From positions 1 to 41,528 of the IMG/VR virus record IMGVR_UViG_3300020074_000042: a stretch of DNA of 41,528 nucleotides, one strand, 5' to 3'. A program made the position numbers and the translations under genes. Shown here piece by piece: positions 132-41,528 of this stretch (position 1 is its first letter; each line of letters starts with the position of its first letter). The notes under the pieces are model-generated. The model did no database searches. It worked only from the letters and a program-made list of their open reading frames with translations, and was not told where the DNA came from. The stretch comes from a virus.

Positions 132-344
132 ATCCAGTCGGCGGGCGAGTCCCTGGCGCGGACGGACGCAGGCACGCGGATCATGGAACATGGCATGGCG
201 CATCAGGCGCGCCTGACGAAGCGCCAGCAGGGCGGCGGGCTCAAGGTTCCGAAGCTCGACGAGTTCGGACGCCCTGCGGCGCCTGGTCCCGATGCGGGCG
301 CCCTGATGGGGGCGATGATGGCCGCCGCAGGAGGCCGAGGATGA
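9..344 (+). CDS. Portal protein, C-terminal part (gene starts at 39579)
   Basis: This frame is the continuation of the portal gene that leaves the right end of the window; joining the two through the 126-bp repeat gives about 720 residues. The ATG at 9 is internal (Met of the 'TGMDLEAERQLDEI' stretch at the right end), not a true start. The C-terminal piece is charged, ends in a Gly/Ala/Met-rich tail and overlaps the next gene by ATGA. The one-base deletion at the left edge breaks the frame upstream of position 6, an edge artefact rather than a mutation. Portal dodecamers form the DNA channel at the head vertex; the extended C-terminus may form the barrel seen in P22-type portals, which is an inference from length. 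Confidence 0.9.
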   Translation: MDLEAERQLDEITRMMAIPGYRAPLRPSDNDEAHAKIVESVIQSAGESLARTDAGTRIMEHGMAHQARLTKRQQGGGLKVPKLDEFGRPAAPGPDAGALMGAMMAAAGGRG

Positions 345-676
345 GCTGGTTCGAACGATCGAAGGACCTCGCGCCCGAGAAGCGCACGTCCGCACGGGTG
401 GCGTTGATCGAGGAGTTCGCCACGACCGAGTACGCCGAAATCCTCGCGGAGCTCCTCGATGGCATCCGGTCTGCCGCGGTCGCGTCGATCGTGCATGGGA
501 CCGACAAGACGGAATTCGAGCGCGGGCGCGCATCGGCGATCAACGAGGTGATCGCCAGCTTGCGGCTCGCGGTCGCGATGGAGCAGAAGCGCCGGGTTCT
601 TCGAAAGCAGGACGAGATGAATCTCCTGACCGGGGACGCCTGGCGGACGTATGGATCGGTACCGGGCCTCGTGTGA
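341..676 (+). CDS. Hypothetical protein between portal and scaffold
   Basis: A 111-residue charged, largely helical protein begins at an ATG overlapping the portal stop (ATGA), with AGGAGG just upstream. It contains a helical core rich in Ala, Glu and Arg (residues 15-85), with no cysteine cluster, signal peptide or membrane segment. I do not recognise a family. Its position between portal and scaffold-like genes is typical of small head-assembly or portal-associated proteins. That role is inferred from context only. Confidence 0.75.
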   Translation: MSWFERSKDLAPEKRTSARVALIEEFATTEYAEILAELLDGIRSAAVASIVHGTDKTEFERGRASAINEVIASLRLAVAMEQKRRVLRKQDEMNLLTGDAWRTYGSVPGLV

Positions 677-721
677 GGGCATCCGAGGTCCGAGAGAGAA
701 CGCCCTGGGAAGTGAGGAGCT

Positions 722-1570
722 ATGCCACCGACACCGGAATCACGCGATTCGTCGATCGAGGGAATCCTGGCCGATGCGGGCGCGGTACAACCGCCGGCGG
801 ATCCGGCGGCTGACGACGCACCTACCACTGTCGAACCGAAGCCCGAAGGCAGGAAACCCGAGGCCGGCGAAGCGCGCGACAAGCCGCCGTGGTGGCTCGC
901 CCACCGGCTCCAACCCATCCGCGCGAAGCAGGATGAATTCCGCAAGGAGCTGGCGTCGGTGAGGGCGGAGATCCAGGAGATGCGCCGGCAAGCGGCCGCG
1001 CCGAAGACGAGCGAGTCCATCGACAGGGAGATGGAAAGCCTCCGCAAGGCTGCGCGGGAGAACCCCGAGCAAGTGGTCGATGTTGCGGAGAGAATCGCGG
1101 AGCTCAAGGCGCGGAAGATCGCGGAGGCGCAGGCGCAGGAGATGGCGGCTGCGGATTCGTTCCGGCAGGAGCAGATGCTCTGGCTGGATCGGGCGGTGGA
1201 ACTCTGGCCCGACGTGCGGGATTCCCAGACGCCGCTCGCACAACTCGCCGCCAGCAAGTGGCAGGAGGCCGAAGAGGCGCGGATCGGCGGCAGATGGTCG
1301 CCGAGCATGCTCCCGAACGGCCGATACCTCATCATCGCGGAGGCGGTCGCGGAACTCGGTGCGGCCGCCCGATACAAGGAACCTGCGGGGGAGCGGGTCG
1401 AACGTCGTCGCGTGGCGCTTGAGGCGGGAAGCCCCGCCGCGGGCGGAGCGGGGCCGAACGTGGCATCCGCCCGCCGTGAGCTCTTCGCGACGCGCGATCG
1501 TGCGAAGGCGCAAGCCGCTCGCTCGGTCGTCATCGATCAGCTCATCCCCGAGAATCTGAGGGAGAAGTGA
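722..1570 (+). CDS. Probable capsid scaffolding protein
   Basis: This 282-residue protein starts at ATG 722 behind GAGGAG and ends one base before the major capsid gene. The first ~55 residues are acidic and Pro/Ala-rich. Residues ~60-160 are a long charged helix typical of a coiled coil, and the C-terminus is basic (ending LIPENLREK). A gene directly upstream of the capsid gene, with a disordered N-terminus, a helical middle and a basic tail, fits a scaffolding protein that shapes the procapsid and is then lost or cleaved. No protease motif is visible. The call rests on position and composition, since scaffolds show little sequence conservation. Confidence 0.65.
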   Translation: MPPTPESRDSSIEGILADAGAVQPPADPAADDAPTTVEPKPEGRKPEAGEARDKPPWWLAHRLQPIRAKQDEFRKELASVRAEIQEMRRQAAAPKTSESIDREMESLRKAARENPEQVVDVAERIAELKARKIAEAQAQEMAAADSFRQEQMLWLDRAVELWPDVRDSQTPLAQLAASKWQEAEEARIGGRWSPSMLPNGRYLIIAEAVAELGAAARYKEPAGERVERRRVALEAGSPAAGGAGPNVASARRELFATRDRAKAQAARSVVIDQLIPENLREK

Positions 1571-1571
1571 A

Positions 1572-2543
1572 ATGGCAAGGGCACTGACCGGCATGACGTG
1601 GTACGACGAAGTCACGTCGTCCACGCTCACGTCGGGATCGCTCAAGGAAGACGTGGTCAACGCGATCACGACCATCTCGCCCGTCGACACCCCCATGACG
1701 AGCCATCGACAACGGTCGCGCGCCATCTCGGTCGTCCACATCGCGCCGTACGATACGCTTGCGGCCCGAACGACCGTAGGCGCGACCGAAGGCGCATCGT
1801 GGACCGACACGGCCGTGACGACGCCCGTGCGGGCCGTGAACTACTGCCAAATCTGGCGGAAGGACTGGGGGATCTCGGGCACGGCCGAGGCGGTCGCGCG
1901 CTACGGCATGACATCGCCGTACCGCTACTACCTGGAGAAGGCGCTGAAGGAGCTGGCGAACAACGTCGAGAGGTCGCTCCTGACGGGCGTCGCCAACATC
2001 GGGACGTCGTCCGCCTCACCCATCCGCTACGCGGGCGGGCTGGCAGCGACGGATTCGACGAATGGCGGCGTCCTGGCCGCGACGCAGTTCTACGCCCCGA
2101 GCTCCGCGACGACGTTCACGCAGGCGCGCTTCGAGACGCTGCTCCAGTACGCCTGGGGCCAGGGGGCGACACCCGACGAGGTGTACGTCGGTCCGTACAT
2201 GAAGCGCGAGACGCTGCTGAAGTGGACCGTCAACACCCGAAACGTCGAGGCCGATGAGAACGCGCTCTACGGCAACGTCGACGTGTTCGACTCGTTCGTC
2301 GGCAAGACGCGCTGGTACCTGACGCGCGACCTCACGGACACGAGCGTCTCGAACCAGTACAACACAATCGCCGCGATCCAGGGTGACCTCTTCCGCTTCG
2401 CGGTTCTCCGGGAGGAGAACATCCCGCTCCAGCGGCAGGGGGATCAGCTCCGCGGCACGATCATCACCGAGGGCACGCTGGAGTGCCGGAACCCGTACGG
2501 TGGTGCGGCCTGCATCACCGCCGTCCACGACACGGTCGCGTAG
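1572..2543 (+). CDS. Major capsid protein, SU10/DUF5309 type (HK97 fold)
   Basis: The 323-residue product matches the pattern of SU10-type (DUF5309) major capsid proteins. An early 'ISPVDTPM' motif (residues ~35-42) is followed by a short beta region with 'ATEGASW' (~75-81). Then comes 'KDWGISGTAEAVARYG' (~97-112) and a long spine helix 'YYLEKALKELANNVERSLLTG' split around residues 117-138. The family adopts the HK97 fold and builds the icosahedral shell. The start ATG 1572 sits behind GGGAGAAG. The protein is short for the HK97 group and shows no N-terminal delta domain, consistent with a separate scaffold gene upstream. A G/C hairpin follows the stop. Confidence 0.92.
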   Translation: MARALTGMTWYDEVTSSTLTSGSLKEDVVNAITTISPVDTPMTSHRQRSRAISVVHIAPYDTLAARTTVGATEGASWTDTAVTTPVRAVNYCQIWRKDWGISGTAEAVARYGMTSPYRYYLEKALKELANNVERSLLTGVANIGTSSASPIRYAGGLAATDSTNGGVLAATQFYAPSSATTFTQARFETLLQYAWGQGATPDEVYVGPYMKRETLLKWTVNTRNVEADENALYGNVDVFDSFVGKTRWYLTRDLTDTSVSNQYNTIAAIQGDLFRFAVLREENIPLQRQGDQLRGTIITEGTLECRNPYGGAACITAVHDTVA

Positions 2544-2558
2544 CCATAGGGATCCGAC

Positions 2559-2589
2559 GGGGGGGGTGAGGCGGATGCCCCATCCCCCC
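2559..2589 (+). terminator. GC hairpin after the capsid gene (attenuator-like)
   Basis: A run of G's followed by TGAGGC pairs with GCCCCA followed by a run of C's, leaving a GGAT loop and small bulges. There is no clear T tract after it, so it may be an RNA-processing or partial-termination element rather than a full terminator. It would sequester an ATG at 2575, favouring the later start at 2611 for the next gene. Confidence 0.4.
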
Positions 2590-2610
2590 TTGCCGGTTCG
2601 AGGGATGAGG

Positions 2611-2955
2611 ATGGAAGAGAAGCGGAATGAGAATCTGGCATTCCGGCCGATGACATCGGCGGACCTCGACCGAGACATCGTTCGGGTCATCGAGCTCTGG
2701 AAGCTCAAGCGGCCGCTGGAGCACCACCAATTTTGCGATGCCGTGCTCAAGTACAAGAAGCTCGTCGAGGAGCGCCAGAGCGCCAAGGCTCCGCTCTGGC
2801 TGATCGGCCAGATCCCGCCGAGCCTCGAATTCCAGATCCACTGGATGTGGCCGGGTTTCTGGCAGGAGCCGAAGAACATCGTCCGCTTCTTCCGGATCTT
2901 CTCGTTGGGTGCGATGCCGAGGCCGAAGACGAATGTCCACCTTGTGCGAGCGTGA
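2611..2955 (+). CDS. Hypothetical protein downstream of capsid
   Basis: About 114 residues, starting MEEKRNENLAFRPM, with GAGGG about six bases before ATG 2611. In-frame ATGs at 2575 and 2605 are alternatives, but 2575 lies inside a hairpin. The product is helical and tryptophan-rich near the C-terminus (IHWMWPGFWQEP, residues ~80-91), without cysteines or membrane segments. Its end overlaps the following enzyme gene by 23 bases. I recognise no family. The position after the capsid gene would suit a decoration or head-completion protein, but nothing in the sequence proves it. Confidence 0.65.
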   Translation: MEEKRNENLAFRPMTSADLDRDIVRVIELWKLKRPLEHHQFCDAVLKYKKLVEERQSAKAPLWLIGQIPPSLEFQIHWMWPGFWQEPKNIVRFFRIFSLGAMPRPKTNVHLVRA

Positions 2956-5869
2956 GAAGACGATCGCGCTGAATGCGGTCGTCCGCGACTGCGAGACGAG
3001 CGTGCGCGCGATGCTCGAAAGCGTCGCTCCGTACGTCGATGAGATCGTCATCGTGGACAACGGCTCCAAAGACAAGACCGCTGCGGTCTGCGCCGAGTTC
3101 GGCGCCCGTGTCATCGATGGATCGGACCTTCTGGATGCCGATGGCGTCATCACGAACTTCGCCGATGCCCGCAACCGCGCACTCGATGCGACGCGGTCGG
3201 CCTATGTCATCTGGCTCGATGGCGACGATGTCCTCATCGGCGGAGAGAAGCTTCGCGGATTGGCGCTATCGGGATTCCGTGACCTGACGATCGGCCAGCT
3301 CATGGTCGCCTACTGGTACCGGACGAACGCGCGTGGGGAGCCAGTCGCGCTCCAGCTACGGGAGCGCATCATTCGCAAGCGCGCGGGTCGCTGGCAGTCG
3401 CCCGTCCATGAAGCATGGATCGCGGACTACGCGGTCGGCACCCAGATCGTCCCGCACGATATCCTTCGAATCGAACACCGGCATACGGGCGAGTATACGC
3501 CGAACCTGAAGCGGAACCTGAAGATCCTCCTCGGCGCATACGAGCGCGAGCCATCGGTCACGTGGATCGAACTCTACCTCGGCAAGACCTACCTGGGTCT
3601 CCACGACTGGCGGAAGGCGATCGAGCACCTCGTCGCCGTCTACGAGAAGGGGCCCGATGCGATCCAGCGCTTCGAGGCCGCGCACATGGCGGCCGATGCG
3701 TTCTTCCATCTGGGACTCGCCCATGCGGCTCGCGAGTTCGCACTCAAGGCATTCGTCATGGCGCCATCCGATCCGAGGATGCTCTTGCAGCTCGCGCGGA
3801 TCGCCTACCATGCCCAGCAGTTCGAGCCCGCGCTCGAATTCGCGCGCCTCTGCCAGCAGGGGAAATTCTCGGCGAGCCACAACACGCATGATCCCACTAT
3901 GCCCATGACCTACGGCCGCGTCATGGAGATTGCGGCGTTGCACAAGCTCGGACGTCACGATGAGGCGCTCACACGCATGGATGGGCTCGATCGCGTGCTC
4001 GAACCTGGCAACGACTATGACGAGGCGCTCGGCGAGGTGTGGCGCGATGCACAGATCATGCGGCAGGCGAAGGAGCTCGAGCGCGCATTCGTCCAGGAAT
4101 CAACGCAGGATCCGTTCTCGGCGGCGAAGGCGGCGGCCCATCTGACCGCGCCTGCCGCGAACCTCACGGGATGGGGGAAGCTCCGCGAGGCAAGCGGCGA
4201 GCAGCATCCCAAGGCGGTGGACCTTTTCTGTGGCGATACGCCGCACCCCTGGACGGGTACGACGATGCGCGCGGGCCATATCGGCGGATCGGAAGTAGCC
4301 GCCGTGCGGCTTGCCGAGGGGCTCTCGCAGTTCGGCTGGCAGGTCACGGTCTATAACGGACGGCCCGATGGCACCATCGTCGAGGACCACGGCGTCCGCT
4401 ACGCACCCGCGGCGCTCTGGAACACGCGCGATCGGCGGGAGCGCGTCATCTACTGGAGATCGCCCTGGGCGCTCGACTACCAGCTCCGTGCGCGCCAGAA
4501 GCTCCTCTGGTTCCACGATGCGGCATCGCCCGATGCCTGGCCGCCACACCGCCGAGCGAACGTGGATCAGGTCGTCACGATCGCCCGGAGTCAGTCGGAT
4601 GCGATGGTGAAGATCCTCGGCCAGGAGCGGATCGTCGAGATCCCCAACTTCGTCCCCCGGCTACCGGTCGCTGGCATCGAGCGCAGGCCGCATTCGGCCA
4701 TCTGGACGAGCGCGCCATACCGAGGGCTCGACATCGCGCTCGATCTCTGGCCGCGCGTCCGCGAGCGGGTGCCCGATGCGGTCCTCCGGGTCGTCGAGCC
4801 CTTCGGCGAGCTCTGGGATATGTTCATCAAAGGGCGGCCTTTCATCCATCTCGGCCATCTCGGACATGCGGTCGATGCCCTCTGGTTCGAGGACATGATC
4901 CGGGTGAAGCTCCAGGGGATCGAGGGCGTCCAGATCCTACCCGTCCTGACGCAGCGAGCCATGGCGCACGAGCTCTCGGCCTCCGAAATCTGGCTCTACA
5001 CCGCGAGCTGGCCCGAGATGTGCTCGTGCGCGTCGATCGAGGCGCAACTCTACGGCGCCGTGCCCGTCTGCCCCCGGTATGCGGGGCTCTCGGAAACCGT
5101 CCATGCGGGTTTCTACCTGCCGCATCCCGTCTGGGAGAATCGGGATGAAGCGGTCGAGATCATCATCGACAGCCTGACGAACGACCCATTGAGAGCCCAG
5201 CGCCGTGCGGCTGCGCTCGATGCGATGTCCGCCTACGATGAGGATCGTATCCTCGCCAAGTGGGATGCGCTCCTGCGGTCGGCGGACAGGCGGGCGGATG
5301 GGATTGAGGCGACCGGGAATCCCGCGTCGGAGGAGATCATCCACGCCGATGAGGATGTGCTCTCGAACCCGCGCTTCGCCTATATCGTGACCGAATGTCG
5401 CAGGCGGCATGCGCCCAAGGTCCTCGACCTCGGAACGGGCGATGGCTGGACGGCACTCGCAGCCGCGATCGGTGGCGCAGGCGAGGTGACGACCGTGGAT
5501 CGCATGCCCACGGACTTCGAGCGGATCCGTCCCCATCTCGATGGACACATGCAGAGAATCAAGCCCATTGCGCTGGACCTCGAAGAGGCGATGCCGGACG
5601 GTGAATACGATGTCGTCATCGCCGAGGAGATCATGGAGCATCTCGCCTCGCCCGCATCGTTCATCGCACGTGCGAAGCAGAAGGTCCAGCCGGGCGGCAT
5701 CCTCATCGTATCGGTGCCGTACTACTCGGGAAGGTACGGAAAGCTACTGGACCTCGATGGACACAAGTGGCTCTTCACGTCGCATGACCTTCGGACGCTC
5801 CTCGGAGATCGGGGGGAAGTGACGACGGATGGGAACCACCTCATCGGCAGATGGAGGAGGAAACGATGA
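2933..5869 (+). CDS. Fused GT2-TPR-GT4 glycosyltransferase/SAM methyltransferase
   Basis: A 978-residue multidomain enzyme. Residues ~8-170 are a GT-A fold family-2 transferase: 'EIVIVDNGSKDKT' at ~37-49, 'NFADARNRAL' at ~75-84 and the metal-binding LDGDD at ~95-99. Residues ~180-350 form TPR-like helical repeats. From ~426 a GT-B family-4 transferase begins, with the 'GHIGGSEVAAVRLAEGL' loop and an E-x7-E motif in 'PEMCSCASIEAQLYG' near 692-706. Residues ~805-978 are a class I methyltransferase with 'VLDLGTGDGWTAL' (~830) and 'IAEEIMEHL' (~895). It probably glycosylates and methyl-caps a sugar on a virion or host target. An upstream GTG (2909) is possible, but ATG 2933 better fits the family start. 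The stop overlaps the fibre start (ATGA), so the two are translationally coupled. Confidence 0.88.
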   Translation: MSTLCEREKTIALNAVVRDCETSVRAMLESVAPYVDEIVIVDNGSKDKTAAVCAEFGARVIDGSDLLDADGVITNFADARNRALDATRSAYVIWLDGDDVLIGGEKLRGLALSGFRDLTIGQLMVAYWYRTNARGEPVALQLRERIIRKRAGRWQSPVHEAWIADYAVGTQIVPHDILRIEHRHTGEYTPNLKRNLKILLGAYEREPSVTWIELYLGKTYLGLHDWRKAIEHLVAVYEKGPDAIQRFEAAHMAADAFFHLGLAHAAREFALKAFVMAPSDPRMLLQLARIAYHAQQFEPALEFARLCQQGKFSASHNTHDPTMPMTYGRVMEIAALHKLGRHDEALTRMDGLDRVLEPGNDYDEALGEVWRDAQIMRQAKELERAFVQESTQDPFSAAKAAAHLTAPAANLTGWGKLREASGEQHPKAVDLFCGDTPHPWTGTTMRAGHIGGSEVAAVRLAEGLSQFGWQVTVYNGRPDGTIVEDHGVRYAPAALWNTRDRRERVIYWRSPWALDYQLRARQKLLWFHDAASPDAWPPHRRANVDQVVTIARSQSDAMVKILGQERIVEIPNFVPRLPVAGIERRPHSAIWTSAPYRGLDIALDLWPRVRERVPDAVLRVVEPFGELWDMFIKGRPFIHLGHLGHAVDALWFEDMIRVKLQGIEGVQILPVLTQRAMAHELSASEIWLYTASWPEMCSCASIEAQLYGAVPVCPRYAGLSETVHAGFYLPHPVWENRDEAVEIIIDSLTNDPLRAQRRAAALDAMSAYDEDRILAKWDALLRSADRRADGIEATGNPASEEIIHADEDVLSNPRFAYIVTECRRRHAPKVLDLGTGDGWTALAAAIGGAGEVTTVDRMPTDFERIRPHLDGHMQRIKPIALDLEEAMPDGEYDVVIAEEIMEHLASPASFIARAKQKVQPGGILIVSVPYYSGRYGKLLDLDGHKWLFTSHDLRTLLGDRGEVTTDGNHLIGRWRRKR

Positions 5870-8052
5870 CCTCGCCAGCAGGCGCACTCGCAGGCGCGTA
5901 CGATGCTTCGGTCGGAGCCCTTCGGATCGCCTTGATGATCGACTCCAACCCCTTGTCGGGCCAGCTCACCTGGAACACGGGGCTCGGTGCGATCAACCAT
6001 CTCTTGGGTCCGAGCGATCAGCAGTTCCGGCTCGCGCCGGGTGCGGGCCAGTCCATCGGGCTCGTGATCGATGACGCGACGACGAATGCGGTCGTGGACG
6101 TCCTGAAGGTCTACCACACGACGACCGGCACGGCCGCAGATGGCATCGGCACGGGCGTCGTCCTCTACGCCGAGGACGCCTCGGGCAACATCGAGGAGGC
6201 AGGCCGCATCCAGGCGCTCTTCACCACGGCGGCGCACGCGACGCAGGCGGGACGGCTGGACATCACGGCCATGGGCGCGGCGGCAGGCACGGGGATTACG
6301 GTCTTTCATACGGGGGTAGTCTCGATTGGTTCCACAACCGCCACTCTTGGTACCGCTCTCCAAGTGGTCGGTGGTAGCATTGGAATCAACGCAACGGGTG
6401 CGCACGGGATTTACCTTTATAGGGGCGGGACGCTCTATAGTCAGATAACAACAGCCTCCAATCATCTTACCGTTCAACTTCAGAACAATGCGAGCATGGA
6501 CATTTATGGTGGAAACGTAGGAATTGGAAATGTCCCCACCCAGCGTCTCGACCTCGCCTACGGCCATCTCGCATTCACGCCTGTGACGGCGCCAGGTGCG
6601 GCGACGATCGACAGCATCGGCGCAGGCGGCCTCTGCACGGACGGCGACCACTACATCAAGGTCACGTTCGTGACCGCCACGGGCGAGACCGAGCTGGGTA
6701 CGGCCTCCGCAGTCGCCACATGCGGCGGCGGCAACAACACGATCAATCTCAGCGCCATTCCGACAGGTCCTGCGGGCACAGGTACGACTCAGCGCAAGCT
6801 CTACATGACGAAGGTAGGATCGGCATCGGTGTACTACGCGCTGGCGACGATCGCGGACAACACGACGACGACGTACGCCATCTCGGTCGCGGATGCTGGC
6901 CTTGGCGCGGACTCGACGTACCGAACAAACAGAACTGCCGGTGGTATATATTTTGGGAACCAGCTAGCGGGTAAACTCGATTCGATCTATGGAAATACAG
7001 CGTGGGGCGTTTCAGCTCTGTCTAGTGTACAGGTGGGTTACTACAACTGTGGATTCGGAGTCTCCGCACTTGAAGCCTTAACAAGTGGTGTGGCAAATAC
7101 GGCCACGGGCAGATATTGCGGTGCTCTATTAACGACTGGCAGTTACAACGTGCTTTATGGGTACGCCTGTGGAGATAATCTAACGACAGGGTCGGGCAAC
7201 CTGCTCTTTGGAACTCAAATCGACGCCCCCTCCGCCACCGGCAGCTACCAGCTCTCGATCGGCAACGCGATCTTCGGGACGAACATCGACGGCGGGGGCA
7301 CATCGATCTCGACGGGGAATATCGGGCTGTTCACGAATGCGCCGGCGGGAAGGCTGCACGTCTACAACGGCCTGACCACGCCGCATGGAGTGTACATCGA
7401 GCAGGTGGGCGTGCTGGCAGCGAATCAGCACGCGCTCTATATCCACTCGAACGCGGCACAGGTCAACGGCAACTTATTGCGGATCGTTCAGGATAACGCA
7501 TCGAGCAGCGAATGGGTAGGCGTCATCGATAATGATGGGGCTGGCGGATGTCTATTTCTCAGACAGGACGGTGTTGGAGCAGGTAGCTTCTATTCATTCG
7601 AGGTGTACTCAAATGCCGCGCAAGTCAATGTAGAACTTTGTGCGCTGGTTCAATCGAACGCTTCCTCCACCAAGGGCTGTATTCTTCTCTGGAACAACGG
7701 CTCCGGCGACACGATCTACGACAACACGGGCGCGAAGCTCACCAATGTGGGCGTCTGGACCGATGCCTCCTCCAAGCGCCTGAAGACGAACTTCCGCTCC
7801 ATCGATGAGGCGGAACTGGAGGCGAAGATCGTTGCGCTACCCGTGAGCCGGTACGAGTACATCCGTGCCCCTGGACGAGACTGCATCGGCCCAACGGCCG
7901 AGGATCTCTACGAGGCGCTCGGCATCGGCGACGACAAGACGATCTCGGCGAAGGATCTCGCAGGTGTTGCGTTGGCAATGGTCAAGAAACTGGTAAGGGA
8001 TCGCGATCGTCTCGAAGCACGGCTGTCCGCGCTTGAGGAGAAGGCGGCATAA
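5866..8052 (+). CDS. Tail fibre/spike 1 with C-terminal S74 chaperone domain
   Basis: A 728-residue fibre starting at ATG 5866 behind GGAGGAGG; an in-frame ATG at 5851 overlaps that site. The N-terminus (MTSPAGALAGAY) is shared with the second fibre. The middle is beta-rich, with YadA-head-like repeats of the type 'N.A.G..AL..LTTG' (residues ~375-455) and 'ALYIHSNAAQVNGNLLRI' repeats (~520-600). The end is an S74 domain: DASSKRLKTN with a Ser635-Lys640 dyad at the standard +5 spacing, a later IGPTAEDLYEAL and a terminal coiled coil. S74 domains fold fibre trimers and cut themselves off before the Ser. Several segments (about 6300-6540, 6930-7240, 7470-7690) are visibly AT-richer than their flanks, suggesting mosaic exchange of receptor-binding parts. 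Confidence 0.87.
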   Translation: MTSPAGALAGAYDASVGALRIALMIDSNPLSGQLTWNTGLGAINHLLGPSDQQFRLAPGAGQSIGLVIDDATTNAVVDVLKVYHTTTGTAADGIGTGVVLYAEDASGNIEEAGRIQALFTTAAHATQAGRLDITAMGAAAGTGITVFHTGVVSIGSTTATLGTALQVVGGSIGINATGAHGIYLYRGGTLYSQITTASNHLTVQLQNNASMDIYGGNVGIGNVPTQRLDLAYGHLAFTPVTAPGAATIDSIGAGGLCTDGDHYIKVTFVTATGETELGTASAVATCGGGNNTINLSAIPTGPAGTGTTQRKLYMTKVGSASVYYALATIADNTTTTYAISVADAGLGADSTYRTNRTAGGIYFGNQLAGKLDSIYGNTAWGVSALSSVQVGYYNCGFGVSALEALTSGVANTATGRYCGALLTTGSYNVLYGYACGDNLTTGSGNLLFGTQIDAPSATGSYQLSIGNAIFGTNIDGGGTSISTGNIGLFTNAPAGRLHVYNGLTTPHGVYIEQVGVLAANQHALYIHSNAAQVNGNLLRIVQDNASSSEWVGVIDNDGAGGCLFLRQDGVGAGSFYSFEVYSNAAQVNVELCALVQSNASSTKGCILLWNNGSGDTIYDNTGAKLTNVGVWTDASSKRLKTNFRSIDEAELEAKIVALPVSRYEYIRAPGRDCIGPTAEDLYEALGIGDDKTISAKDLAGVALAMVKKLVRDRDRLEARLSALEEKAA

Positions 8053-8062
8053 GGAGAGACCA

Positions 8063-8320
8063 ATGGCGGAGACATGGCAGAAGGTGACGGTCGATGGCCA
8101 GGAGGTCATCGAGGTCACGGCGACGAACGTGAGCACGCGCGACTACAAGCGCGTCGAGGACGACATCCGGCATATCGAGATGCGGATCGCGATGCTGGAA
8201 GGCCAACTCGTCGCCGAGAAGGCGGCACTCGTGGTGGCGAAGGCGCAGATCGCGACGTTGCCGAAGCCGAAGCCCGTAGAAGTCGTCGTTGAAGAGCCGA
8301 TCGAGGAGCCAGAACCGTGA
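8063..8320 (+). CDS. Hypothetical coiled-coil protein after fibre 1
   Basis: 85 residues starting at ATG 8063 behind AAGGAGAG. The N-terminal ~25 residues look beta-rich (WQKVTVDGQEVIEVTA). Residues ~28-62 form a heptad-like helix, and the C-terminus is Pro/Glu/Val-rich (EVVVEEPIEEPEP). The stop overlaps the next GTG start (GTGA). Its place between two fibres suggests a fibre-assembly helper or fibre-associated protein, but no family is recognised. Confidence 0.7.
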   Translation: MAETWQKVTVDGQEVIEVTATNVSTRDYKRVEDDIRHIEMRIAMLEGQLVAEKAALVVAKAQIATLPKPKPVEVVVEEPIEEPEP

Positions 8321-8619
8321 GAACGATCGTCATCACGGAGGAGCTTGCGGAGAAGCTTTGGACGCTTCACGCAAGGCTCCATGAGCAGGATCGGCAGGTC
8401 CGATACGCGATTGCGGACCTCAAGGCCGCACGCGATCACGAAGAGGATGAGCGCCAGCGGGCGCTCTTGTTGCGCCGTTCGCTCGATAGGCTTCTCCTGG
8501 AGATCCGAGACATCTACTCGGTCTCAATCATCGATGGCATCGAACTCGGGGATCGATCGGAGAGGACGGTGTACGTCGGCGCGAGTGACGCCGACGTGAC
8601 GACGGAGGAACAACGATGA
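8317..8619 (+). CDS. Hypothetical charged helical protein
   Basis: 100 residues from a GTG start coupled to the preceding stop, ending in an ATGA overlap with fibre 2. Residues 8-70 are strongly charged and helical (EELAEKLWTLHARLHEQDRQ), and the C-terminal third is less regular. No cysteine pair, signal or membrane segment is present. With its upstream neighbour it forms a two-gene insert between the fibres; a fibre chaperone role is possible but unproven. Confidence 0.7.
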   Translation: MRTIVITEELAEKLWTLHARLHEQDRQVRYAIADLKAARDHEEDERQRALLLRRSLDRLLLEIRDIYSVSIIDGIELGDRSERTVYVGASDADVTTEEQR

Positions 8620-9674
8620 CGACGCCGGCTGCCGCACTTGCAGGCGCATATCGGGAGACGACGGGTGCCCTGGCTGTCACGCTCGTGACGACGCCATCTC
8701 TGAGCCTGACGCCCACGACCGATGTCGTTGCGCTGACGATTACATCTCCAGCGACATCCGCATCGGGGATCGACCTCAACTCGGTGAATACGTCGGGCGT
8801 CGTCATCGACGTCGATGTCATCCCGGCGAACAATAGCAACGCGAACGACACGGTCTTGGACCTCACATATTCCCTGACCGTCACCGACGGCGCGACGTAC
8901 ACGAAGCAGGGACGCATCCTGCGGCTCACCAACTCGCAGACCCAGACGTCGGGCACGATCACGGACTCGGCCGACTGTCTCGTCATCGTCCAGGCTGGCG
9001 ATTCCGGTAAGGCAATCAGTATCACACATGGCGGCACGGGCAACGCGATCGATATCGCGTCGACTTCATCTGGATACGGTATCAATATCGATCAGAATGC
9101 CGCGCTCGCGAGCGGGAAAAGCGCATTGAGAGTCGCCTCGAATACCGCGGCACATGCGGGGTGGCTCGTCTCCCTCTCGCAGTCGCACGTGGCATCAGGA
9201 ACCGGCGTCCTCTCGATCGAAAATGCCTCCGTATCGCAGAGTCTATACATCAACACCTACGGGGTCACCGCGACGAGCATCGACATCGATGCCCCGAATA
9301 CGTCGGGGATTGTCATCGACCTGGATATGGTCCCTGGGAGCACGAGCACTGCTCAGATGCTCACGCTATCGAATACCGGCGCCAATGCGTCGACCGGCAC
9401 AGGAGTCGTCATCGATCACGATGGCGCGACCGGGCTCGCCATGGATATCGATCGAGATGGCAATAGCGGAGCGCGTATATGGGCACTGAAGATCGACTGT
9501 GACAATGCAGGTCTCGGAGGAGTTGGAGCCATCGATGTTTCCGCGCTTGCCGCTGGCGATGCGGTCTTCCATCTCCCTGTCGATACGGGAGGTGTCGGTG
9601 CGGCATACGGACGCATGGCCGTCTATGTCGTCGGCGTCGGAATCAAGTACGTGGCGCTTTACGAGGCAGCATAG
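8616..9674 (+). CDS. Tail fibre-like protein 2 (shared N-terminus, beta repeats)
   Basis: 352 residues, start ATG 8616 behind GGAGG. It begins MTTPAAALAGAYRETTGAL, matching fibre 1's MTSPAGALAGAY..SVGAL, so both probably use this tag to attach to the same virion site. The body repeats short beta strands of the type 'SGIDLNSVNTSGVVIDVDVIP' (split at ~45-65) and again 'TSIDIDAPNTSGIVIDLDMVP' (split at ~225-245). It also has Gly/Asp turns such as HDGATGLAMDIDRDGNSG. This looks like a beta-helix or stacked beta-sheet fibre shaft. No S74 domain or catalytic lyase/hydrolase motif is visible. It may be an alternative or accessory fibre, or a head fibre. Confidence 0.8.
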   Translation: MTTPAAALAGAYRETTGALAVTLVTTPSLSLTPTTDVVALTITSPATSASGIDLNSVNTSGVVIDVDVIPANNSNANDTVLDLTYSLTVTDGATYTKQGRILRLTNSQTQTSGTITDSADCLVIVQAGDSGKAISITHGGTGNAIDIASTSSGYGINIDQNAALASGKSALRVASNTAAHAGWLVSLSQSHVASGTGVLSIENASVSQSLYINTYGVTATSIDIDAPNTSGIVIDLDMVPGSTSTAQMLTLSNTGANASTGTGVVIDHDGATGLAMDIDRDGNSGARIWALKIDCDNAGLGGVGAIDVSALAAGDAVFHLPVDTGGVGAAYGRMAVYVVGVGIKYVALYEAA

Positions 9675-15873: not shown

Positions 15874-17052
15874 ATGGCCTATCCGATACCCAACATCCGA
15901 GCGCCGTTCTCGCTGGAGGCCGCGATGTCGATCATCCGGACGCTCCAGCAGCGCCAGCAGGCGCAGGAGATGGCCGCCTACCGGACGCAGGCTTTGAAGC
16001 TCCAACGCGAGAGCCAGGCGGACGCGCTCAAGGCGAGGGCGTTGCAGGCGGGCGCCATCCCCGTCTTTTCCGAACCGACGGACATAGAAATGCAAGGCAT
16101 CGTCGGAACGAAGGCGCCGGGGCCTGCGCGAGAATCAGCCGCAGAGCTCTATAAAGGGGCAGGTTTCTCCGGGCACCCACCGCTTTACCGACTTGGCAAT
16201 ACCTGGTTCGCTCCGCCGCCTGCTGCCGCGATCGAGGCCGGACGCAAGGCCAAACGTGAGGAGGCCCAGATCGCATCGACCGAGGCCCTGACCGGCGTTC
16301 GGCGTGCGACCGAGGAGGCGCTCCGGATCGAGGCCGGACGCAAGGCCAAACGTGAGGAGGCCCAGATCGCATCGACCGAGGCCTTGACCGGCGTTCGGCG
16401 TGCGACCGAGGAGGCGCTCCGGAAGAAGGCCCAGGCTCCGCCGCCGCCTGCGAAGCTCTCGGATGAGGAGAGGATTCTCATCGGCAAGTTCTCGGACTGG
16501 ACGACGAAGCTTCTCGCCGGCGAGGAGATCGACACCACGCCGCCCAAAGGGCTCTCATCCGACGCACAGGCGTACTTCGCGGGCATCCGGATCGGGAAGG
16601 GGCCTGTCTCGAAGCTCTCGGAGGAGAAACAGAAGGCCATCGTCAAGGGGCTCCAAGGGATTGTGAGCCATATCCAGGAACGTGGATCCCCCTTGGCAAA
16701 GTCCACGCTCTCCGGCTTGTCCGGCATCGTGCCAGCGCTCGATTTCAAGTTCCCGGGATGGAGCGCCGAGAATACCCCCGAAGGTACTCCGCTCCAGCAG
16801 TGGTTCGGCGACATGCGCCAGATCCTGATCGATAGCGCCATGGAGGAGTCTGCGACACCTCGGCCACAAGCCCAGGGCGCGCCCGCGGGGCCCGAGCCTG
16901 CCGCCATGCCTGCCGGCGGCACGTCCGCCTTGCCGCAGGCGCCACTGGACATCGAGGGACTGCTCGGGGCATCGTCTGAGGACTGGGGGAGGATCCTGGA
17001 CCTTCTCGGCGAGGAGACGGGCTTGTTCGAGGAGGAGGAGGAGGAGGAGTGA
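15874..17052 (+). CDS. Probable internal/ejection protein 2, with tandem repeat
   Basis: 392 residues, start ATG 15874 behind AGGAGGAGG. Residues ~10-55 form a Gln/Ala-rich helix. Residues 120-183 are two consecutive copies of a 32-residue unit beginning IEAGRKAKREEAQ, a strongly charged helix, encoded by a near-perfect 96-bp duplication. The C-terminal quarter is Pro/Ala-rich, ending in seven Glu codons. Those GAG codons double as the ribosome site of the next gene, whose GTG overlaps this stop. Such helical, repeat-bearing proteins next to a giant inner protein fit DNA-ejection components. No enzyme motif is seen. Confidence 0.62.
   Translation: MAYPIPNIRAPFSLEAAMSIIRTLQQRQQAQEMAAYRTQALKLQRESQADALKARALQAGAIPVFSEPTDIEMQGIVGTKAPGPARESAAELYKGAGFSGHPPLYRLGNTWFAPPPAAAIEAGRKAKREEAQIASTEALTGVRRATEEALRIEAGRKAKREEAQIASTEALTGVRRATEEALRKKAQAPPPPAKLSDEERILIGKFSDWTTKLLAGEEIDTTPPKGLSSDAQAYFAGIRIGKGPVSKLSEEKQKAIVKGLQGIVSHIQERGSPLAKSTLSGLSGIVPALDFKFPGWSAENTPEGTPLQQWFGDMRQILIDSAMEESATPRPQAQGAPAGPEPAAMPAGGTSALPQAPLDIEGLLGASSEDWGRILDLLGEETGLFEEEEEEE
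16231..16422 (+). repeat. 96-bp tandem duplication, two copies
   Basis: Copy 1 is 16231-16326 and copy 2 is 16327-16422. They differ at one synonymous site (CCCTG versus CCTTG inside GAGGCC.TG). In frame, each encodes a 32-residue charged helix, so the duplication lengthens a predicted coiled coil by whole heptad-like turns. Near identity indicates a recent event or gene conversion. Confidence 0.95.
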
Positions 17053-25913: not shown

Positions 25914-26633
25914 TTACACCTGGCAGATGATACACGGTTCATCGGGAGCCTCGTCTGGAATGAGCCTGAGTTGCGCCTCGTCCGCTGTTCGGAGTTCCCG
26001 AAGTGGCCATGGTGAAAAGGTAAAGCCGCACGTTCTTATCGACTGCGCTTCCCATTCCTCCGATAGCCGATAGAGCGTTGGATGGTGTTGAAGCATCCCG
26101 AGCCAATCCTGTTTTCGCTGGAACGGACAACAGAAACAGGAAACGTTCGTCCGCCACTGGTAGAGCGGATTGAGGAGATCGTGTTTCCTACAGAGCGCGA
26201 TCACGTCTGTCTTTCCAAGTCCGGCTTCGATGAGCGGAAACTGCCAGTATGGATTGCTTTCCGCAAGGCGACTGGCGCGCTCCCTTTCATCCGCTCGAAT
26301 GCCGACGTAGACGACCTCGGCGCCGACCACCTCCCGGTTCTTGTCGAGAGGCGTCCGCTTGAGTAGTCGCGTACACCATCGCCGGTGTGCGGACGGCAGG
26401 AGCCAGCCGAACTGAACGAGCCACGCAAAGAAGCCGCCGTTAGATACAACGGTAAGGTTCTTCTTGAGTAGGTTCGCCGTTCTCGCCACCATCCAGACTG
26501 TCTCCGGAAACTCGGCCCCCGTGTCGGCAAACACCAGCTCATACTCGATGCCTTGCTGCTTGAGAAGGATCGCCATCGCAGTCGAATCCGCTCCACCAGA
26601 GTACGAGAGAAGATTCATCGCCCTTTCAGTCAC
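25914..26633 (-). CDS. PP-loop ATPase, PAPS reductase/sulfotransferase-like
   Basis: 239 residues from GTG 26633, coupled to the previous stop (GTGA). SYSGGADSTA (10-19) is the PP-loop that binds ATP or APS. 'FADTGAEFPETV' (~35-46) follows in the usual place. Cysteines in WCTRLLK (~86-92), CFCCPFQRK (~165-173) and the terminal CIICQV may hold a metal centre or act as a thiol carrier. The family includes PAPS reductases and adenylating enzymes such as DndC. In a phage it could supply sulfur chemistry for DNA or tRNA modification, or rework host metabolism. The N-terminus may omit the first five residues if Met6 is used. Confidence 0.8.
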   Translation of the reverse strand: MTERAMNLLSYSGGADSTAMAILLKQQGIEYELVFADTGAEFPETVWMVARTANLLKKNLTVVSNGGFFAWLVQFGWLLPSAHRRWCTRLLKRTPLDKNREVVGAEVVYVGIRADERERASRLAESNPYWQFPLIEAGLGKTDVIALCRKHDLLNPLYQWRTNVSCFCCPFQRKQDWLGMLQHHPTLYRLSEEWEAQSIRTCGFTFSPWPLRELRTADEAQLRLIPDEAPDEPCIICQV

Positions 26634-36218: not shown

Positions 36219-36480
36219 GGTCCCAGGCCGGCCCCTTCCACAGCCTCAATCCCCGGGCCCGGTCCCAGGCCGGCCCGCAGACTCGCACCGGGCACCCGCT
36301 CGCGGACGCCCAGGGGGGGGTCGGATCCGCCAAGGGGCTGCCAGCCGGCCCCCAGCCGGCCCCCAGCCGGCCCCCGGCCCCCCCCCGGGCCCGGTCCCAG
36401 GCCGGCCCCTCCCCCCCGCCCCCGCCCCCGGGCCGCCGAGGGTCCTCAGAGGCTCCCCCGGGGGGGCCCCCAGGGCCCTC
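36219..36480. repeat. Extremely C-rich repeat tract, G-quadruplex-prone
   Basis: Non-coding. A 26-bp sequence beginning CCCCGGGCCCGG is repeated at 36251-36276 and 36383-36408; its last 16 bases also occur at 36219-36234. Between them CCAGCCGGCCC is tandem three times (36341-36373). Many runs of three or more C's give G runs on the other strand. Open frames across it are low-complexity and unsupported. Confidence 0.8.
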
Positions 36481-37377: not shown

Positions 37378-37789
37378 GGAACTGCGGTTTCTGACCGCCC
37401 TGATTCCCGAGGCGAGGCCACTGCGGGAGGCGCTCGAACGATCGGGTCTTTCCAAGGAGACGTTTCTCGGGCTCCTCGATGACGAGGAATTCCAGAAGCT
37501 GGCGGCAAGGAAGGTCGAGGGGTATGTCAGGTTCCTCTACCTGACGATCGTCGCACGGATCTGCCAGGAACTGGCGAAGGATCCGATGCGTGCGACGACG
37601 GCGATGCTGAGGCTGATTGCGGAACGGTTCGATCCCAAGTTCAAGCCGACGACCCAGCATGTCCATACCCTGCAGTTGCCCGACTTCCGGGGGATGTCGC
37701 GCGACGAGCTCTTGAGGTTGCGTTCGGAGCTTGCGCTGCCGAAGCCCAAGCCGCTGGAGGTCCGCCATGACGACCGTCGCGTCGGATAA
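37361..37789 (+). CDS. Terminase small subunit
   Basis: 142 residues from GTG 37361. 'REALERSGLSKETFLGLLDD' (~22-41) is a helix-turn-helix-like DNA-binding part, followed by helices (~45-100) and a C-terminal 'GMSRDELLRLRSELALP' that may contact the large subunit. Immediately upstream of, and overlapping, the large terminase gene by 23 bases. Small terminases recognise the packaging site; the repeat-rich region at 36.1-36.5 kb is the nearest candidate. Confidence 0.75.
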   Translation: MEAHAEELRFLTALIPEARPLREALERSGLSKETFLGLLDDEEFQKLAARKVEGYVRFLYLTIVARICQELAKDPMRATTAMLRLIAERFDPKFKPTTQHVHTLQLPDFRGMSRDELLRLRSELALPKPKPLEVRHDDRRVG

Positions 37790-39314
37790 GGGCGGATACC
37801 GCGTCGGCACACACCATGTGCCGCGGCACGAAATATACGCCGCAAAAGTTGATTGGGAGTTGGCACAACGCCGCTCGAAGGATCCACTCCTCTACCACGA
37901 TCCGCATGAGAAACAGGCGAGCTTCCATCGATCAGGAGCACGATTCCGCTCGATCTTCGGTGGAAACCAGTCGGGCAAGACGACCGCGCTCCTGGCCGAG
38001 GTCACATCGGCCGCGCTCGGCTTCTATCCCTGGCGGACCGATGGAAAGACGCCGACCTTGGCCATCCGGCCCGAGAGCCTGCCGGATGAGAGCCGGTTCC
38101 AACTCACGGGCCCGCGAGCGATTCGCGTGCCGAACCTCGGGCTCGTCCTCGGAAACGGCGTCGATGACGGCATCAAGACCGTGCTGCTGCCCAAGCTCCG
38201 CGAGATCGCAGGGCCCTACATCGCACGCGAGACGAAGTCGATCGGCGGCGCGATCGGCGAGATCGAATGGGCGAACGGCTCCAGGACCATGATCCGGAGC
38301 TATGGAAAGGATGCGGCGAAGTTCGCGGGATCGACGATCTCCTACGTCGCGGTCGATGAACCCATGCCCGAAGACGTCTGGACGGAAGTACGACGGGGGT
38401 TGATCGCGCTCGGCGGACGCGCATGGTTCGCCATGACTCCCCTGTCCGAGCCCTGGATGTACGACCAGCTCTTCACGAGGGCCGCGCAGGGGGATCCGGA
38501 CTACTTCGCGATCGAGATCAGCTATTGGGACAACGACCGGCGCGAACGCGACGATGAGAATTGGGTCGCCCATCTGACCGATGAGGAGGCCGAGACGCGC
38601 GTCTTCGGCCGCTTCTTCCATCTCTCGGGTCTGGTCTATAAGGAATGGGATCGCGAGGTGCATCTCGTCGATCCGTTCCCGATCCCGCAGGAGTGGCCGC
38701 GCTGGCAGGTCGTCGATCCACACGATCGTCGGCCGTTCTTCATCATCTGGGCCGCGGTCGCGCCCGACGATTCGGTCTACATCTACCGCGAGTGGCCCGA
38801 TCGCCCCTTCGAGGAGATGACGAGCTCCGATATCGATATCGATGGCTATACGAAGCTCTTCCAGAACCTTGAGGATGGCGAATCGATCGACTTCCGGGTC
38901 ATGGATCCGGCATTCGGCCGGCAACTACGGGGCGGCACGACGGTGCAAGATGAGTTCGACCGGCGAGGATACTATTTCGATTGCACCGTGAAGAACGATA
39001 TCCAGGTCGGCCATCTGAAGGTCAAGGAGTATCTCCGTTTCGACCGCGCGCGACCGGTCGATACGCTGAATCGCCCGCGGCTCTACGTCTTCCGCACGTG
39101 CCGGAATACGGCGTGGTGCTTCGAACACTATATCTGGGCCGAAGCACGCCATGCGGGACCCGCGCGCGAGGTCGTCCGCGAGGTCGGCAAAGATGGCATG
39201 GACTGCGTGAGGTACCTCTGCATGTCCGAACCGAGACATCGGCGGCCTGCGGCGTGGAACCGCTACGCGCTCGCGGCCCTCGGGGCAGGCGCAGGCTATG
39301 CGCGGGCGAGCTGA
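37767..39314 (+). CDS. Terminase large subunit
   Basis: 515 residues from ATG 37767. Walker A GGNQSGKTT at 65-73 and Walker B YVAVDEP with Asp197-Glu198 form the packaging ATPase. The C-terminal RNase H-like nuclease shows Asp317 (VVDPHD), Asp380 (RVMDPAFG) and Asp476/Asp479 (GKDGMDC). It pumps DNA through the portal and cuts the concatemer. The start is chosen at 37767 rather than upstream codons because residues before it are basic low-complexity read from the small-subunit gene. Confidence 0.95.
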   Translation: MTTVASDKGGYRVGTHHVPRHEIYAAKVDWELAQRRSKDPLLYHDPHEKQASFHRSGARFRSIFGGNQSGKTTALLAEVTSAALGFYPWRTDGKTPTLAIRPESLPDESRFQLTGPRAIRVPNLGLVLGNGVDDGIKTVLLPKLREIAGPYIARETKSIGGAIGEIEWANGSRTMIRSYGKDAAKFAGSTISYVAVDEPMPEDVWTEVRRGLIALGGRAWFAMTPLSEPWMYDQLFTRAAQGDPDYFAIEISYWDNDRRERDDENWVAHLTDEEAETRVFGRFFHLSGLVYKEWDREVHLVDPFPIPQEWPRWQVVDPHDRRPFFIIWAAVAPDDSVYIYREWPDRPFEEMTSSDIDIDGYTKLFQNLEDGESIDFRVMDPAFGRQLRGGTTVQDEFDRRGYYFDCTVKNDIQVGHLKVKEYLRFDRARPVDTLNRPRLYVFRTCRNTAWCFEHYIWAEARHAGPAREVVREVGKDGMDCVRYLCMSEPRHRRPAAWNRYALAALGAGAGYARAS

Positions 39315-39578: not shown

Positions 39579-41528
39579 GTGGCCGTGAAGGAGGATCCGG
39601 TCAGCCTGCGCCGGGCAATGCAGGTCCGGACGACGAAGCTCGATGAGATCGTCGAGCACGCGGTCGAGGCCATCGGCGACATCGAGAAGGCGCGCTCGCC
39701 GTGGGCCGAGAAGCTCGCACGTCTCTACCGGCAGCGCTTCGGCATCCGAAACGAGAAGATTTTCCCCTGGCCGGGCGCGGCGAACCTCCACTTTCCGCTC
39801 ATCGACAAGACCATCCGGCGGCTGAAGGCGATGTTCGTCCGGCTCGTCATCGGCGCGTACCCCATCGTCACGATCGCGGCGCAGGATCAGGGGCTCGCAC
39901 GCAAGGTGGAGCAGTTCCTGGAGTGGCTCCTGCGGATCAAAATGGCCATCCTCCGGCCGCTCGTGATCCTCGCCGATGCGATGCTCTCGTTCGGAAAGGG
40001 GTTCCTCAAGGTCACGTGGAACTACGAGACGCGCTCGGTCACGGAGAAGCGATCGGTCGCGGACATCTTCCGCGGGCTCGATCCGACGAAGCTTCCGACG
40101 CCCGTACAGGCGCAGATGCTCGCGACCTCATTCGGACTTCGGCTCCCCGATGACCTGGAGCTCCTGCGAAAGATCCATGAGCGCCTCGACGCAGGCGATG
40201 AGGACATCGCGGTCGTCCGCGATGTGGTCGTCCACGATGAGCCGCTCTGGACCGTCATCCATCCCATGGATCTCTACGTCGAACCGGGCACGGGCGACAT
40301 CGAACAGGCGGAATTCATCGCGCACCGCATCCGGATGTCGAGCGAGGTCCTGCGCTCCCGCGAGCGCGCGGGCTTCTACAAGAACACGTCCGATGTCATC
40401 GAGTTCGCGGAGGCCGCGCGTCCCACGCGCTTCTCCGAGAGCATCATCGGCGACTCCGAGAAGCGCGAGGATGTGACGAGATCATCGGCGGTCGGAGAGG
40501 CGGACATCCACGAGTGCTACCTCCTGCATGACATCAACGGCGATGGCGTGAAGGAGCGATGCGTCCTGACGATCCATGTCCCGACGAAGACCGCTCTGCG
40601 GTTCATCGAGTTCCCGTACTGGCATGGCGAGTGGCCGATCACGGCGTTCGACTTCGAGCTCACCGATGGCCGCTGGCTGTCCGCGCGTGGGGTGAGCGAT
40701 CTCCTGGAGGATATCGAGAAGGAGATCGACATCCAGCACAACGCGAAGATCGATTCGATGTCGTTGACGAATGCGCCCATCGGCTTCTACGCGCGCTCCT
40801 CGGGGCTCCAGCCCGACGATATCCAGTGGATACCGGGCCAGTTCGTGCCGCTTGCGAATCCCCAGACCGATGTCGTCTTCCCCGTCCTCCCGAGCCATGA
40901 GATCAGCTACGAGCGCGAGGAGAGCATCCTACGGGCATGGGCCGAGGACCTCGCAGGCACGCTCGATGTCGCGCTCACGCGACAGGATGAGAGTCGCAAT
41001 CCGCGCACCGCGACCGAGATCGAGGCGACGCAAGGCGAAGTGTCGAGCATCTTCGGACTCGACTCGGCGCTCTTCCAGGACTCGTTGCGAAGGGTCTACG
41101 GACAGACGCTCGCCCTGTGGAAGCAGTTCGGTCCCGACGACGTCGAGATCGCGGTCGTCGGCGAGGACCTGCCGATCAAGGTTTCGCGCCAGGAGCTCCT
41201 ACGGGGCATGGACATGATCCCGACCGGCACGCCGGCGAACGTCAACGCGAGCCTGCGGCTGGGACGCGCGATTCAGTTCCTCCAGGTGCTCTCCCAGTCG
41301 GGCCCGGTCGAGAACGTCAGCATGGCCGAGTTGATCCGCTACATCGCCCAGTTGCAGGATCCCCTGATGGCGCGGCTCATCATCCATCGGGGCGGCATGA
41401 CGGGCATGGATCTCGAGGCGGAGCGGCAACTCGACGAGATCACGCGGATGATGGCGATTCCGGGCTATCGCGCGCCGTTGCGTCCGTCGGACAACGATGA
41501 GGCGCATGCGAAGATCGTGGAGTCGGTC
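39579..41528 (+). CDS. Portal protein (N-terminal 650 residues; continues at 9-344)
   Basis: GTG start 39579, with GGAGG 11 bases upstream. The window ends after exactly 650 codons and the frame resumes at the left end, total ~720 residues, similar to P22-type portals. 'IFPWPGAANLHFPLIDKTIR' (~60-79) and 'FGKGFLKVTWNYE' (~141-153) are typical of short-tailed-phage portals; 'VDIQHNAKIDSMSL'-like helix text and 'TATEIEATQGEVSS' (~480-493) mark the channel region. It forms the dodecameric vertex used for packaging and exit. Confidence 0.9.
   Translation, partial: MAVKEDPVSLRRAMQVRTTKLDEIVEHAVEAIGDIEKARSPWAEKLARLYRQRFGIRNEKIFPWPGAANLHFPLIDKTIRRLKAMFVRLVIGAYPIVTIAAQDQGLARKVEQFLEWLLRIKMAILRPLVILADAMLSFGKGFLKVTWNYETRSVTEKRSVADIFRGLDPTKLPTPVQAQMLATSFGLRLPDDLELLRKIHERLDAGDEDIAVVRDVVVHDEPLWTVIHPMDLYVEPGTGDIEQAEFIAHRIRMSSEVLRSRERAGFYKNTSDVIEFAEAARPTRFSESIIGDSEKREDVTRSSAVGEADIHECYLLHDINGDGVKERCVLTIHVPTKTALRFIEFPYWHGEWPITAFDFELTDGRWLSARGVSDLLEDIEKEIDIQHNAKIDSMSLTNAPIGFYARSSGLQPDDIQWIPGQFVPLANPQTDVVFPVLPSHEISYEREESILRAWAEDLAGTLDVALTRQDESRNPRTATEIEATQGEVSSIFGLDSALFQDSLRRVYGQTLALWKQFGPDDVEIAVVGEDLPIKVSRQELLRGMDMIPTGTPANVNASLRLGRAIQFLQVLSQSGPVENVSMAELIRYIAQLQDPLMARLIIHRGGMTGMDLEAERQLDEITRMMAIPGYRAPLRPSDNDEAHAKIVESV
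41403..41528. repeat. Terminal direct repeat, right copy
   Basis: Identical to 6-131. This copy keeps the portal frame intact through GGGCATGG, whereas the left copy lacks one G just outside the repeat, so the right copy is the reliable one. Confidence 0.95.

Follow-up and report, generated by a model that had tools for sequence, protein, structure and literature searches.

Described glycosyltransferases acting on proteins and virions

Enzymes that add the first sugar to a protein include GmaR, a flagellin GlcNAc transferase, and the peptide glycosyltransferases SunS and ThuS. In GmaR, a GT2-type glycosyltransferase (GT) domain precedes the TPRs, which were proposed to recognise the flagellin onto which GlcNAc is transferred (PMC9638930). 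The Listeria monocytogenes protein, at once flagellin O-GlcNAc transferase and antirepressor, is a bacterial regulator that goes on into a linker and antirepressor domains. SunS, which comes from the SPbeta prophage, and ThuS are glycocin S-glycosyltransferases, their substrates being small bacteriocin peptides. Neither GmaR nor SunS and ThuS carry a GT4 domain or a methyltransferase (MT).

To our knowledge, glycosylation of the virion itself has been shown so far in few phages. It is reported for the mycobacteriophages Che8, Corndog and Myrna (Freeman et al. 2023, via PMC12363180 and PMC12619734) and, in the case of Che8, the capsid and the tail tube are reported to be glycosylated by phage-encoded enzymes (PMC12363180). 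In Che8, the gene for gp108 encodes a fusion of GT2 and MT and precedes a further two GT genes; the literature searched yielded nothing useful on phage GT-MT fusions. A further point of comparison is the Manatee Spring phage ctKR88 (MW202524), in which the gene for the major capsid protein (MCP) is followed by a small gene and then by one, annotated as beta4glucosyltransferase, that encodes a GT2-TPR-GT4 protein.

A four-domain enzyme downstream of the capsid gene

The window, that is, the whole stretch of 41,528 nucleotides analysed here (IMG/VR record IMGVR_UViG_3300020074_000042), contains a fusion gene that starts 0.4 kb downstream of the gene for an SU10-type MCP (Table 1). An earlier note, made from the sequence alone, had described it as a single chain of 978 residues combining GT2, TPR, GT4 and MT parts, and this description was borne out, given that the reading frame is stop-free throughout and the Pfam domains follow one another in that order. 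The GC content at the three codon positions (68/45/81%) is the pattern of a real gene, and the gene is well preserved. Translation may start at ATG 2933 or at the alternative GTG 2909 (986 residues), a clear ribosome site being present at neither. No membrane segment was found in the enzyme, the top hydropathy over 19 residues being 1.09. In the AlphaFold2 model, built with 22 sequences, the GT2, TPR and GT4 domains come out well, most of the stretches 10-340 and 420-785 having block pLDDT values of ~75-97. The enzyme is ~25% identical to its relatives and, in trees, both the whole protein and its MT sit on long branches without supported placement.

Table 1. Position of the features discussed in the text (coordinates of the window).
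Feature	Residues	Position	Strand	Basis or remark
SU10-type MCP, presumed acceptor		1572..2543	+	PF17236, 6e-50; conserved neighbour
Small ORF between MCP and enzyme	116 aa	2605..2955	+	Position as in five relatives; homology weakly supported
Fusion enzyme GT2-TPR-GT4-MT	978 aa	2933..5869	+	Open reading frame, Pfam, AlphaFold2
GT2 domain, GmaR/SunS type	8-186	2954..3490	+	Pfam, family profile, pLDDT ~90
DxD motif LDGDD	95-99	3215-3229	+	Within GT2 domain
VHE of GT2 (position given for HE)	158-160	3407-3412	+	Motif
TPR-like helical domain	188-405	3494..4147	+	TPR_14 and helices in model
GT4-type GT-B domain	428-789	4214..5299	+	Sub-threshold Pfam, fold match, conserved motifs
E-x7-E motif of GT4	E695; E703	5015-5017; 5039-5041	+	Codons of the two Glu
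Class I SAM-dependent MT	794-978	5312..5866	+	Pfam, model, PDB fold
MT motif I DLGTGDG	832-838	5426-5446	+	Intact
Tail-fibre-like protein		5866..8052	+	Pfam, C-terminal S74 chaperone (7768-7920); ATGA overlap with enzyme
Terminase		37731-39314

The N-terminal part of the chain is recognised by Pfam as Glycos_transf_2 (residues 21-125, 5e-11), and TPR_14 matches residues 248-290 (1e-5). A family profile made from 22 phage relatives, with the window protein as first sequence, aligned with GmaR along the length of its GT domain (E=3e-42) and with the GT2 and adjoining helices of SunS (E=4e-27) and likewise of ThuS (4e-19), while the window protein by itself matches GmaR at 1e-5. A fold search of the PDB placed SunS and ThuS on top, followed by the TPR-bearing SPINDLY and O-GlcNAc transferase. 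By profile, therefore, the N-terminal GT2 groups with GmaR and SunS/ThuS, and it shares with GmaR the TPR or TPR-like helices placed directly after the GT2 domain. The three Asp of LDGDD are invariant in the 22 relatives, as are, among relatives, the His and Glu of VHE.

As for the second GT, Glyco_transf_4 was matched at residues 450-520 (8e-6, slightly below the gathering score), and the fold matches comprise PimA, MshA and glycogen synthase. The GGSE and SSPDRGL motifs of this domain are conserved in relatives. The motifs that had been listed as intact (LDGDD, E-x7-E and DLGTGDG) are all present, with the qualification that in relatives only the first Glu of E-x7-E is nearly invariant, the second being Lys or another residue in several of them. 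Low-TM fold matches to O-GlcNAc transferase extend over both the TPRs and the GT-B part; membership of that family (GT41) was discarded, as the GT-B part scores as Glyco_transf_4, and in relatives as Glyco_trans_1_4 or Glycos_transf_1, but not as GT41. In two relatives the GT4 domain is interrupted by inteins (L147, ORF 5962-9318, about residues 690-1032; L191, ORF 226-3555, about residues 715-1022), both with Intein_splicing, accompanied by LAGLIDADG in one and by HNH in the other. They share one spot, before a Cys between the two E-x7-E positions, which would be expected of a conserved active site.

The C-terminal domain matches Methyltransf_23 (residues 825-961, 2e-14) and has the Rossmann fold with motif I of a class I SAM-dependent MT. 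Its nearest named families are UbiG, TehB and BioC, all matched under the curated cut-offs (6e-13 for the NCBIfam UbiG). It is poor in the full-chain model because no other row of the alignment covers it, but modelled alone, with 15 MT sequences, it reached a pLDDT of 84 and a pTM of 0.84, with UbiG as the best PDB match and TehB structures matching as well.

Distribution and arrangement among relatives

No close relatives were found in IMG/VR by a single-sequence search; a first alignment search of that database retrieved 47 loci with relatives, and a wider one at least 385 relatives. On the evidence of these matches, the GT2-TPR-GT4 core is widespread in uncultured phages. The ctKR88 protein is 24% identical over 76% of the window protein and, unlike the latter, its MT is unfused, GT and MT being found as separate genes downstream. 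Additional GT and MT genes also lie downstream of the enzyme gene in other relatives.

The MT occurs in three arrangements among the matches listed: as a C-terminal fusion (window, L151 and L197/L199), as a fusion between TPR and GT4 in six loci (L019, L020, L027, L028, L032 and L036), and as a separate gene, which in eight clusters abuts the GT gene or overlaps it by 4-45 nt. The MT domains that the window MT matches with the best scores are those fused to GTs in other phages or encoded at phage loci next to such GTs. Since the MT is fused in two orders and is also encoded by separate adjacent or overlapping genes, fusion of neighbouring overlapping genes is the most likely origin of the four-part chain. 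It had been supposed that no characterised phage enzyme displays this exact order. The order is indeed uncharacterised, but its uniqueness was ruled out by the wider search, which found it in L151 and L197/L199 as well. Longer chains, with extra GT domains fused at the C-terminus, were observed too: L143 (ORF 5992-9159) encodes a GT2-TPR-GT4-GT2 protein of 1056 residues, and L018 (ORF 2051-6469) a chain of 1473 residues with repeated GT2 and GT1/GT4-type matches.

The comparison with Che8 is of a different nature. Both phages encode GTs that include a GT-MT fusion, but in Che8 the genes are separate and lie at the far end of its record, the MT is of the Methyltransf_24/TylF type instead of Methyltransf_23/11, and neither TPR nor GT4 was detected in gp108-110. 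Kinship with gp108-110, the nearest virion GTs that have been characterised, was rejected because no significant sequence match was obtained, so that the window enzyme is not a member of that system and would only work alike. Che8 gp108 is best regarded as a useful parallel, not as a homologue.

With regard to genome position, the first search gave 12 records, the window and MW202524 among them, with an SU10-type MCP gene 0.4-1.0 kb upstream. In the wider search such a gene is found at most 1.1 kb away in 51 of the 68 clusters (70% identity, among the matches listed), a share too high for the family at large because the seeds of that search were mostly of the SU10 lineage. In four of the loci with an internal MT (L019, L020, L027 and L036), the fusion gene lies 17-88 nt beyond the end of an unlike capsid module, with genes for portal, head decoration and MCP as called by PHROG in L036. 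Association with the capsid thus recurs with two unlike capsid modules.

The interval between MCP and GT genes holds a conserved small gene in five phages (L002:2636-3130, L005:5446-5919, L008:6972-7418, L016:7538-8002 and L022:3515-3985). In the window, the small ORF in this interval overlaps the enzyme start; its hhalign score against the small-gene family was 27.7, compared with at most 20.3 in 200 shuffles, with a probability of 31%, and hmmsearch did not separate it from shuffles.

Proposed function and alternatives

The kinship with GmaR, SunS and ThuS, the vicinity of the capsid gene and the lack of a membrane segment make glycosylation of a virion protein the best reading, with the capsid as the likeliest acceptor. 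The enzyme is probably a multi-step glycosyltransferase for proteins, soluble in the cytoplasm, which during assembly in the host decorates the virion of the phage itself, with the MCP as its most probable target. From what is seen in sequence or model (the four domains, the GT2 kinship with protein glycosyltransferases, the intact motifs and the capsid adjacency), we infer a putative activity, sugar, target, order of steps and methylation of the glycan. Briefly, docking on the acceptor protein would fall to the TPR domain. The GmaR/SunS-like GT2, with a sugar nucleotide from the host as donor, would attach the first sugar to a side chain, and the GT4 would add a second sugar, which the C-terminal MT would O-methylate, capping or disguising the glycan; extension and capping are suggested by domain order and analogy. 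The system had been called self-contained, a notion that is not supported: the ORFs of the window that were scanned, a subset of the total, include no gene of a sugar-nucleotide pathway, and hence the donor sugar would be host-derived. Nor were further GTs or MTs of the same types found elsewhere in the genome.

Adjacency does not fix the MCP as the target, which could instead be a protein of the tail or the product of the small ORF in between. The earlier note had placed the enzyme between capsid and fibre genes, with translational coupling to the latter. Such coupling is plausible because at ATG 5866, the likelier fibre start, a GGAGGA lies close upstream and the start overlaps the enzyme stop (ATGA). 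If translated from one message right ahead of the fibre, the enzyme might act on the fibre or another tail protein and tune host binding or stability, and the mycobacteriophage tail tube, as well as the capsid, is reported to be glycosylated (PMC12363180, PMC12619734). Of 37 related records, however, only 3 have an S74 domain that passes the threshold, and only in the window phage was one seen beside the enzyme; in the records compared, the fibre neighbour is therefore peculiar to this phage, whereas the capsid neighbour is conserved. The fibre was thus dismissed as a conserved partner, the upstream MCP was retained, and the capsid is favoured over the fibre, which is an unlikely target. As for a target in the host, phage GTs that alter the host serotype are well known (see also PMC12619734). 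Some relatives do lie outside the structural module, L009 by a DnaB-type helicase gene and L003 by the terminase gene, as might suit an enzyme acting on host surface glycans or on a host protein, for instance to prevent superinfection or to change how the host behaves. This is quite unlikely for an enzyme that lacks a membrane anchor, is kin to GTs with protein acceptors and is encoded in the midst of capsid genes, whose expression is usually late.

Virus GTs can also hypermodify DNA (Pyle et al. 2024, via PMC12619734). Glycosylation of the phage DNA, in the manner of the glucosyltransferases of T4-like phages, is highly improbable here, as the TPR and the GmaR/SunS kinship point to a protein, the neighbourhood is that of the capsid and not of replication, and the thymidylate synthase/hydroxymethylase family (PF00303), required for a DNA glucosylation system, has no match in the record. 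A last alternative concerns the MT alone and is compatible with the proposed role of the GTs: it might methylate a protein or a small molecule and be fused for co-expression or stoichiometry, in keeping with the varied substrates of UbiG, TehB and BioC and the match below their cut-offs. The MT recurs together with these GTs in three different arrangements, and Che8 has a GT2-MT fusion too, which makes this rather unlikely.

Glycosylation of the virion, in short of the capsid rather than the fibre, remains the preferred interpretation, and the enzyme would represent a compact single-chain form of a known idea, the single-chain variant being what is new. A wider and more tentative reading, plausible without being probable, is that virion glycans are built by a single-chain assembly line of wide occurrence: a TPR-docked GT2 that initiates on the protein, a GT4 that extends the glycan and an MT fused on in several lineages, all encoded beside the capsid gene in at least two capsid lineages of uncultured phages. 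If so, glycosylated and partly methylated capsids would be common in environmental phages. A fused enzyme recognisable beside a capsid gene would serve as a marker for glycosylated phages in metagenomes. The family would also offer a defined enzyme set for testing, and its adjacent genes, internal fusions and C-terminal fusions a natural series of how a multi-step glycan enzyme is built.

Other features of the genome

The ends of the record (1-131 and 41397-41528) overlap by 131 bases at 99% identity, and a sister contig, L132, spans the joint; the record, classed as linear, is therefore an effectively complete genome of 41.4 kb. L132 ends at window base 2914, just short of the enzyme and, across the junction, carries after the terminase an ORF of 720 residues (3828-5990) at the position expected for the portal. 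A gene of the PAPS-reductase family (25914-26633, minus strand) lies near the replication genes. The ORF at 15874-17052 contains an overlapping direct repeat of ~106 bases (16230-16431), with 96% identity and copies 96 bases apart. A tRNA-Pro (GGG) gene (36307-36390, minus strand) is flanked by an exact direct repeat of 26 bases (36251-36276 and 36383-36408), and bases 36271-36309 correspond at 85% to the reverse complement of 4755-4793, inside the enzyme gene.
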